From the NCBI RefSeq assembly GCF_024734405.1, contig NZ_CP059556.1, forward strand, positions 1,674,001 to 1,738,000: 64,000 nt of DNA, in the 5' to 3' direction. The translations under genes were made by a program, and so were the position numbers. This document shows, one piece after another, positions 56,113-57,459 of the stretch. The notes beneath the pieces are model-generated. The model was not told where the DNA came from, did not search any database, and saw only the letters and a program-made list of their open reading frames with translations. The first letter of the stretch is position 1, and each line of letters begins with the position of its first letter. This DNA comes from Saccharopolyspora gregorii (GTDB lineage Bacteria > Actinomycetota > Actinomycetes > Mycobacteriales > Pseudonocardiaceae).

Positions 56113-57198
56113 TCAGAGCTCCAGGGGCCAGCGGTGGCGGCCGGTGCTGATCCGGTGGGTGCCGTCGGGGTGGACGGTGAGCGTGCAGCGATCGGGGGTG
56201 GGACGACCGGCGTCCCGCCACCAGGCGTGCGCGGCTTCGACCTCGTTCCAGAGCTCGCGCGGCCCGAGCTGCAGCACCGGCCACGGGTGCTCGTCGCGGA
56301 TCATGCCGACGCGCGCCCACGATCCGGTGCGGCGGTCGTGCAGTTCGACGTCGCGGTGCCGCTCGTCGCGGTCCTCGACGGTGAGGTGGCAGTGCGGCAC
56401 CCGGAGCCCGATGGTGAAGGCGGCGCGGGAGAACTCGACCACCTCGTACAGCTCCGGCCCGCGCAGCGCGGTGCTGCTGCGCCGCGCCGCGCGGAGTTCG
56501 TCCTCGTCCGGTTCGAGGCGGTGCCTGCGCTGCTGCCGCAGCCGCATGAACGAGAGCCGCGTGCCGCAGCGCCCGGTGGCCGAGCCGTCCGGCCGCACTT
56601 CCAGTCTGGTGAGCGCGTCTTCGCCGTAGTCGGTTCCCCACGGCAGCAGCACCAGTCCGCCGACGCGGGTCTGCTCGATCCAGGCACGCGGGACGGTGCG
56701 CGCCGAGGCCGTGGCGATGACCCGGTCGTACGGCGCACCGGACGGGTGCCCGGCCGCGCCGTCGCCGGTGATCACGTCCACGTCGCGACCGGTGGCGGCG
56801 AGCACGTCCCGGGCTCGGGCGGCGAGTCCCGGGTCGATCTCCACCGAGGTCACCTGGCCGTGCGGGCCCACCCGGTCGCGCAGCAGCGCGGCGTTCCACC
56901 CGGTGCCGGTGCCGATCTCCAGGACGCGCAGGCCCGGTCGCAGGTCCAGCGCGTCGAGCATCTCGGCGACGAGCGAAGGCTTGCTGCACGAGCTCGTCGG
57001 CGTCCGCGCGTCGCCGCCGGGTTCGCCGTCCGCGACCTGCGTCACGACCGGTTCGTCGGCGTCGACCAGCGCGTGCCAGCGCGCGGGTTCCCGGTGGAGG
57101 GAGACCGGGGTGAAACCGTCCGATTCGGGGTCGTCGTCCCAGACCACCGGCGGGATGAATGCGCCGCGCGAGGCGGGGAGCGGAGCCTGTTCGCCCAC
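56113..57198 (-). CDS. PIMT-type O-methyltransferase, probable RiPP aspartimide-forming enzyme
   Basis: 361 residues. N-terminal two thirds match protein-L-isoaspartate O-methyltransferase: TSSCSKPSLVAEMLDAL (substrate loop, 68-84), SAM motif VLEIGTGTGWN (92-102), VTSVEIDPGLAARARDVL and ITGDGAAGHP...YDRVIAT. Canonical PIMTs are about 200-230 residues; this one has about 130 extra C-terminal residues, as in RiPP-associated PIMTs that bind a precursor peptide. It starts (GTG 57198) six bases after a 38-residue Asp-rich peptide gene. It would methylate one Asp of the peptide, which then cyclises to aspartimide. Simple protein repair is the alternative. Confidence 0.8.
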   Translation of the reverse strand: MGEQAPLPASRGAFIPPVVWDDDPESDGFTPVSLHREPARWHALVDADEPVVTQVADGEPGGDARTPTSSCSKPSLVAEMLDALDLRPGLRVLEIGTGTGWNAALLRDRVGPHGQVTSVEIDPGLAARARDVLAATGRDVDVITGDGAAGHPSGAPYDRVIATASARTVPRAWIEQTRVGGLVLLPWGTDYGEDALTRLEVRPDGSATGRCGTRLSFMRLRQQRRHRLEPDEDELRAARRSSTALRGPELYEVVEFSRAAFTIGLRVPHCHLTVEDRDERHRDVELHDRRTGSWARVGMIRDEHPWPVLQLGPRELWNEVEAAHAWWRDAGRPTPDRCTLTVHPDGTHRISTGRHRWPLEL

Positions 57199-57204
57199 TG
57201 CGGA

Positions 57205-57321
57205 CTACTTCTCGCTCTCCGGACCTTCGTGCTTATTTCCGTCGTCGTCCGTTCCCCACGTCTCCCACTTGTCCGGTTGCGGCGTGCCCTGCCCGTCCCG
57301 GTCGGCGTCCCGTCGGCCCAT
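57205..57321 (-). CDS. Short Asp-rich peptide, candidate imiditide-type RiPP precursor
   Basis: 38 codons from ATG 57321 to TAG 57205, with GGAAGGG about eight bases before the ATG. Reads MGRRDADRDGQGTP..., then a segment with two Trp (W19, W22), KWETWGTDDDGNKHEG (18-33), and an acidic end. Seven Asp; two are followed by Gly (D9-G10 and D27-G28), the most cyclisation-prone sequence, and D27-G28 sits in the TDDDGN stretch. No Cys, no signal peptide. Six bases upstream of the PIMT-type methyltransferase, so almost certainly co-translated. Substrate role is inferred from this arrangement. Confidence 0.65.
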   Translation of the reverse strand: MGRRDADRDGQGTPQPDKWETWGTDDDGNKHEGPESEK

Positions 57322-57459
57322 CGTTTCGCCCTTCCTGCGTCGGGAATGCGTCGAATTCCAGGGTGCCGGAGCCGTCGGGCGAGGTGGGAGGTGCTGCGGG
57401 GTGAACCGGTTGGCGAGATCGAGTGCGGTGAACTTCCTTGATCGGCGGGTGGGGGAGTG

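Follow-up and report, generated by a model that had tools for sequence, protein, structure and literature searches.

A probable two-gene imiditide operon with a Trp-bearing precursor in Saccharopolyspora gregorii

INTRODUCTION

Imiditides and pamtides were named as a class in 2023. SpaA (a type I pamtide) and NmaA (an imiditide) are both linear when their enzyme methylates a single Asp, which becomes an aspartimide and then a mixture of isoAsp and Asp, as described in passages of two sources (PMC10787088, PMC13001092). According to the same passages, SpaA was no longer modified once its last five residues had been changed, while in NmaA the removal of the last ten residues affected it and the removal of the last five did not. 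Recognition of imiditide precursors is thought, in the published sections that deal with it, to be a charge-charge interaction between precursor and enzyme. Type I precursors are described as ca. 45 amino acids long, with averages of 17.3% Gly, 16.8% Pro, and 10.2% Asp (PMC10787088, in part), and the counts given in sections of these sources are more than 1,500 two-gene clusters (PMC10787088) and 1,414 type I members (PMC13001092). A 2026 review lists, in one of its sections, WxxxGxP as a motif of lassimiditide, graspimiditide, and imiditide enzymes (PMC13001092). What aspartimide and isoAsp peptides do is described as largely unknown (PMC10787088, in part).

Here, we analyzed a pair of genes within a stretch of 64,000 nucleotides (the window) of the 6.34-Mb genome of Saccharopolyspora gregorii. 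A sequence-only reading of the window had proposed that a 38-codon gene and the PIMT-type methyltransferase gene behind it form an imiditide-like locus, with D27 as the modified residue. Most of our sequence comparisons agree with the class and point to a different Asp.

RESULTS AND DISCUSSION

A small gene under purifying selection

Both genes are encoded on the minus strand (Table 1), an orientation that the sequence-only reading had not given. With a ribosome-binding site (AGGAAGGG) in front of its ATG and only 6 nt between its stop and the start of the methyltransferase gene, the peptide gene is arranged as that reading had described, and AGGAGG-like sites were seen at the equivalent position in several relatives. 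The upstream neighbor, on the same strand, encodes a muconolactone-isomerase-like protein and is followed by a divergent ArsR-type HTH regulator, while downstream there is a convergent E2 gene of a 2-oxoacid dehydrogenase complex. A consensus scan for promoters and terminators at the locus gave no match.

Table 1. Features of the locus, in window coordinates
Feature	Position	Strand	Basis
Precursor-like peptide gene, 38 aa, ATG to TAG (stop included)	57205..57321	-	Relatives carry homologues at the equivalent position; pN/pS 0.20
Ribosome-binding site, 7 nt 5' of the peptide ATG	57329..57336	-	Read directly
Codon for D9 (of D9-G10), predicted modified Asp	57295..57297	-	Conservation in close and related precursors
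Codon for D27, candidate of the sequence-only reading; now thought to be part of the C-terminal recognition region	57241..57243	-	Conservation pattern
PIMT-type peptide Asp methyltransferase (predicted) with C-terminal extension, 361 aa, GTG to TGA	56113..57198	-	PF01135 and TIGR04188 scores
SAM-binding GTGTG motif, residues 96-100	56899..56913	-	G96, G98, and G100 invariant in 52 aligned enzymes
WxxxGxP motif (WRDAGRP), residues 327-333, in the C-terminal extension	56200..56220	-	Motif described in a section of PMC13001092

The 38-mer (MGRRDADRDGQGTPQPDKWETWGTDDDGNKHEGPESEK) contains seven Asp (positions 5, 7, 9, 17, 25, 26, and 27), the two Asp-Gly sites D9-G10 and D27-G28, and two Trp (W19 and W22), as had been noticed from the sequence alone, together with six Gly, three Pro, and no Cys. 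Its net charge is -5, and that of its last 15 residues is -4. Set against the published type I averages, Gly and Asp of the 38-residue peptide fit, whereas Pro is low; the low Pro content (3/38) and the acidic character up to the C-terminal end count against the class. SpaA and NmaA are compared here by their published descriptions. Cysimiditides (type II pamtides such as FcaA, TceA, and NalA) also have two genes and an enzyme of the same superfamily but carry two CxxCxGxG motifs in the precursor, and a type II pamtide was ruled out by the absence of Cys in the 38-mer.

We measured the ratio of nonsynonymous to synonymous polymorphisms of the peptide gene across 17 pooled sequences, some of them nearly identical, and 32 codons. 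The ratio was 0.20 in frame versus 1.93 and 2.02 in the shifted frames, and variable columns at codon positions 1, 2, and 3 numbered 12, 11, and 27 of 32. Given this purifying selection in the same frame, and the strong profile matches upstream of homologous enzyme matches (see below), the small gene is more than a chance ORF: it is real and under purifying selection. Lack of conservation of the 38-mer had been named in the sequence-only reading as evidence that would speak against it; the peptide turned out to be conserved, both by its pN/pS value and by its profile matches in family genomes.

Pairing of peptide and enzyme across genomes

Among 390 genomes of the family, the methyltransferase had matches at an E value of ≤1e-60 in 61, and a profile built from 22 precursors (A2) matched in 33 at an E value of ≤0.01 in a six-frame search. 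The strong peptide matches (E < 1e-10) amounted to 29 places in 28 genomes, and each of them (29/29) was followed on its own strand by a homologous methyltransferase, the conserved pairing for which the sequence-only reading had suggested a search. The distance between match end and match start was 15 to 89 nt in 28 of these pairs; in the other (G052) it was 531 nt, with an enzyme match covering residues 170 to 349 only. Weaker peptide matches were six, one paired and five unpaired, and one of the latter (G007) falls within a 1.7-kb stretch that also contains an enzyme fragment. The comparison used 34 enzyme places from the listed methyltransferase matches. As the profile was built from ORFs beside methyltransferases, matches to the 22 rows that went into it are expected by construction; the independent evidence for the pairing is that no strong unpaired peptide copy was seen among the 390 genomes.

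Within the genus, four of the five other genomes had a close enzyme homologue (64 to 70% identity), always with the peptide upstream (4/4), and the fifth (G005) had only a distant enzyme match. When 394 genomes sampled evenly from the class were searched, the 38-mer type (E ≤ 1e-4) was found in the genome of the window alone, which hints, short of proof, at a restriction of the Trp-bearing type to this family.

No precursor-like ORF was recognized beside the homologous enzymes at L056/L096, L070, L085, L087, L101, L135, L153, L157, L160, and L173, although stretches L134 to L173 consist mainly of upstream DNA, where downstream partners would escape. Methyltransferases with no recognized small upstream ORF, which the sequence-only reading had considered damaging, occur among some homologues and in none of the Trp clade. 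Upstream ORFs of other kinds were present at L141, L150, L170, and L171, and the precursors of L038 and L008 escaped the ribosome-site filter and were recovered by other searches. Elsewhere, relatives of the pair carry precursor-like ORFs that match the published description, as given in a section of PMC10787088.

Additional, incomplete, or altered versions of the pair were seen at L164 (G056), L162 (G052), L172 (G007), L041, and L045. They include a second peptide that comes with a partial enzyme match, other partial enzyme matches, and small ORFs with changed frames, which suggests that the cassette duplicates and decays. The S. gregorii genome itself has, outside the window, a second PAMT-like gene (L002, G000:C1:3987747-3988784; 41%). 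It is accompanied by another type of precursor-like ORF, whose TGK...D(I/V)DPK.Y pattern is common to its relatives L011, L012, L169, and L221. In the Streptomyces sparsogenes genome (G390, L096 to L103), there were 12 PAMT-like matches, seven of them with an E value of <1e-30; L097, L098, and L099 had different precursor-like ORFs, two matches were beside ATP-grasp genes, and no precursor-like ORF was found at L056.

An enzyme tree made by a quick method (110 rows, 52 of them unlabelled and none known as SpaM or NmaM) grouped the 26 Trp-type rows and the unlabelled L045 in one fork with an SH-aLRT support of 94, within which 24 fork at 100. Rows of the same family with GKH-type precursors joined the Trp type in 13 of 14 cases, in a 44-row fork with a support of 99. 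Three cysimiditide-type enzymes from Nocardiopsis formed a separate group; the same search had recovered ORFs with the Cys motifs of type II pamtides at the Nocardiopsis loci L079, L080, and L082, a useful internal control. The graspetide-linked enzymes L100 and L102 fell elsewhere on long branches, their placement being unsure.

D9 as the predicted modified residue

The precursors chosen for alignment numbered 51 (not every locus): 25 close ones, among which are a second copy and two altered ORFs; 13 related ones, namely L144 and 12 that belong to the sister part of the tree; and 13 more distant ones, a block that aligns poorly. Position 9 was Asp in 24/25 close, 13/13 related, and 9/13 distant precursors, with Gly as the next residue in 23, 13, and 9. 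Among the exceptions were L045, which has neither D9 nor an ATG at the usual place and looks eroded, and L044, where the site is Asp-Asp. Position 27, the candidate of the sequence-only reading, was Asp in 22/25, 1/13, and 4/13, respectively. The residue after D27 was Gly in 14 of the close precursors, Gln in four, and Glu, Ala, Asp, and Pro (L031) in one each, and always Pro in the four distant ones. Asp-Pro cannot form an aspartimide, as Pro has no amide hydrogen. Therefore, D9 is favored over D27: D9-G10 is common to the related precursors, while D27 is mostly absent there and is followed by a variable residue, once Pro. If the locus belongs to the imiditide class, these alignments make D9 the likely modified residue.

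We give a small but real chance to the alternative that the class is right and D27, or another Asp, is modified instead. Of the 25 close precursors, 22 keep D27, with Gly next in more than half of them, and it is invariant in the 22-row alignment; it adjoins the C-terminal NKHE motif, and in the Streptosporangium precursors L060, L062, and L067, an Asp-Gly, an Asp-Gly, and an Asp-His, respectively, lie nearer to GKHEK, at places that do not align to D9. Nevertheless, the Pro of L031 rules out an aspartimide there, and D27 is missing in 12 of the 13 related precursors, all 13 of which keep D9-G10. D5 was Asp in 24/25 close and 5/13 related precursors. Since D5, D9, and D27 are all invariant among the 22 closest precursors, their conservation may stem from binding and not from modification.

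Two precursors, L158 (within the set of 51) and L143 (outside it), have Asn-Gly at the place of the conserved Asp-Gly. Asn-Gly gives the same succinimide spontaneously, without an enzyme.

Proposed reaction and recognition

In the reading that we favor, the peptide would be made without a classical leader, and the methyltransferase would recognize it as a linear peptide, mainly via the conserved downstream QPxKWxxW...DxxNKHE, a follower-like region. It would then methyl-esterify a single Asp, D9 being the most likely one. Attack of the G10 amide on the methyl ester would give an aspartimide, which would either persist or hydrolyze to a mixture of isoAsp and Asp. We infer recognition through the C-terminal part, the reaction, its site, and any biological role, taking the reaction by analogy with SpaA and NmaA.

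Charge complementarity, the published idea for recognition, was evaluated in 48 pairs with a null result: the charge of the precursor and that of the enzyme C-domain showed no correlation (Spearman 0.16, p 0.27). The 22 Trp-type precursors had a mean net charge of -5.0 and their enzyme C-domains one of -5.2, the C-domain of the window having +1. Judging from these sequences, charge pairing does not seem obviously transferable to the Trp-type pairs.

An extended PIMT-type enzyme

The methyltransferase matched Pfam PF01135 with 110.9 bits (cutoff, 20.3) and shows the SxP and GxGxG features of PIMTs by sequence. It is 126 to 153 residues longer than nine PIMTs of 208 to 235 amino acids in the PDB match list, in line with the ca. 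130 extra residues proposed in the sequence-only reading; the exception is the tenth PIMT of the list, 1DL5, with 317 amino acids and a C-terminal extension of its own. The alignment to repair PIMTs (e.g., PDB 1JG1) covers residues ca. 70 to 204, and the sequence profile of the family, when aligned to 1DL5, ends at profile position 213 and does not reach the C-terminal domain of 1DL5. WxxxGxP was present in 20/22 enzymes of the Trp clade, 8/13 related ones, and 12/13 more distant ones.

By sequence, the catalytic domain is that of a PIMT, and an enzyme that merely restores isoAsp formed spontaneously at the Asp-Gly of the peptide has to be considered; the two relatives with Asn-Gly at the site would fit such a role. 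In contrast to repair enzymes, this one has a long C-terminal extension with the motif of RiPP-modifying PIMTs and is paired with a single dedicated peptide. Tested relatives, moreover, methylate Asp and not isoAsp alone, as reported in passages of PMC10787088 and PMC13001092. We consider repair improbable.

Neighboring genes and other RiPP enzymes

When the window and six named loci with 6-kb flanks were compared (ORFs of at least 70 amino acids), no third gene accompanied the pair throughout the seven regions. The methyltransferase, with its overlapping shadow frames, was the sole item common to the seven, and one further group of short frames appeared in six. Such a setting would also suit a peptide that is not a substrate and instead acts as an adaptor or regulator, steering the methyltransferase to a host protein, and related enzymes lie beside FHA proteins according to a passage of PMC10787088. 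However, the tested two-gene relatives modify their own peptide (PMC10787088, PMC13001092, in the passages dealing with them), and we hold an adaptor to be as improbable as repair.

The search for other maturases covered the genome with ATP-grasp, LanC-like, and lasso-transglutaminase models and the nearest neighbors with Pfam. No gene for a graspetide ATP-grasp, LanC, or lasso transglutaminase was found within the window by these models, as the sequence-only reading had stated. The ATP-grasp model TIGR04187 had a single match in the genome, below the cutoff, and there were two LanC-like matches and one lasso-type transglutaminase match, all of them outside the window. Along similar lines, tblastn with two graspetide ATP-grasp proteins against loci up to L173 (1.5-kb flanks for most and 6 kb for named loci) found such genes only in the source S. 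sparsogenes loci L100 and L102. These two controls were confirmed as graspetide type, L100 with 385.6 bits (above the cutoff of 350) and L102, read from an internal start, with 297.8 bits (below it).

Graspimiditides (group 13 graspetides) resemble the locus in that their enzyme model, TIGR04188 (ATP-grasp-associated graspetide methyltransferase), is the closest curated one to the methyltransferase, and the best among the NCBIfam models (297.9 bits). The locus differs from them in having no ATP-grasp match in the window and an enzyme score below the cutoff (380). All 52 aligned relatives matched this model. The scores of individual enzymes taken as controls were as follows: the ATP-grasp-linked L102 and L100 with 393.8 and 326.8 bits, the two-gene types L097, L067, and phage L178 with 296.1, 294.7, and 337.2, the cysimiditide-type L080 with 278.8, and the paralogue of the same genome (L002) with 254.4. 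Given that L100, linked to an ATP-grasp, scores 326.8 and the two-gene phage enzyme 337.2, the score alone does not cleanly separate graspetide-linked from two-gene enzymes. A degenerate graspetide locus, in which the enzyme would be left over after an ATP-grasp cluster had lost the synthetase, is the least credible reading despite the shared model, since the window enzyme scores close to the two-gene L097 and L067 and well under L102, the examined stretches show no ATP-grasp beside the clade, and both graspetide controls fall in other parts of the tree, albeit on long branches.

Returning to the imiditide class, most sequence tests agree with a locus where a PIMT homologue is the sole modifying enzyme, as the sequence-only reading had suggested: the pairing, the extension with WxxxGxP, the absence of other maturases of three kinds in the window, and the ORFs of the relatives. 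We therefore regard a two-gene imiditide (type I pamtide) operon as likely. Like NmaA-NmaM and SpaA-SpaM, it has two genes with a short Asp/Gly-rich precursor and no other maturase found, a PIMT homologue with a C-terminal extension of >100 amino acids and WxxxGxP, and a conserved Asp near Gly and Pro, here D9-G10. It differs from them in the conserved KWE(N/T)W block, the low Pro content, the acidic C terminus, and a predicted target nine residues from the start.

Similar cassettes in Streptomyces phages

Full-length relatives of the enzyme (at least 80% coverage) were found in 8 of 50,697 phage records, which come from five named phages. In Streptomyces phages of the Austintatious group, a precursor-like ORF is followed by a full-length PAMT (L178:3741-5080, L179:3678-5080, L183, L184, and L185), a pair that, by sequence, appears comparable to an imiditide-type cassette. 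Two annotated records, PapayaSalad (L178) and Alderaan (L179), have the small ORF annotated 8 nt before the enzyme gene, and the same ORF, of 47 to 48 amino acids from a shared ATG, occurs in the IMG/VR contigs L183 to L185. In PapayaSalad, the endolysin side and a regulator plus integrase enclose the pair together with hypothetical genes and a tRNA. The phage enzymes were 42 to 44% identical to the enzyme of the window and 60 to 67% identical to the relatives L063, L073, and L072 from bacterial genomes. A tblastn search with the phage precursor against the phage collection gave no match, probably due to the low-complexity filter. A term search of the Alderaan genome paper (PMC7650747) gave no mention of a methyltransferase, and nothing on phage-borne imiditides appeared by title or abstract among the papers listed in literature searches.

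A probable Trp-bearing subfamily

Searches of the imiditide, aspartimide, pamtide, and Saccharopolyspora literature, in part among the best 40 of 193 and the best 20 of 3,460 records, returned no title or abstract that deals with this peptide. Members of the Trp clade may well be already in the published cluster lists, and the Trp-bearing pair is probably a definable subfamily of the known imiditide class.

More tentatively, the Trp-bearing precursors might constitute a distinct leaderless subfamily, modified at D9 under the KWxxW...NKHE follower, recognized otherwise than by charge pairing, and with a conserved intracellular or cell-surface function rather than that of an exported antibiotic. 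The non-antibiotic role is proposed because we found no common neighbor of the pair that would serve export, cleavage, or immunity.

Precursors that form a coherent clade and agree on a single predicted site would provide a clean test system for enzyme recognition on a linear peptide, and the case indicates that aligning several clades predicts a target site better than inspecting a single sequence. Should the phage cassettes prove active, phages or lysogens may also count aspartimide peptides among their traits, which would point to a role for these peptides.
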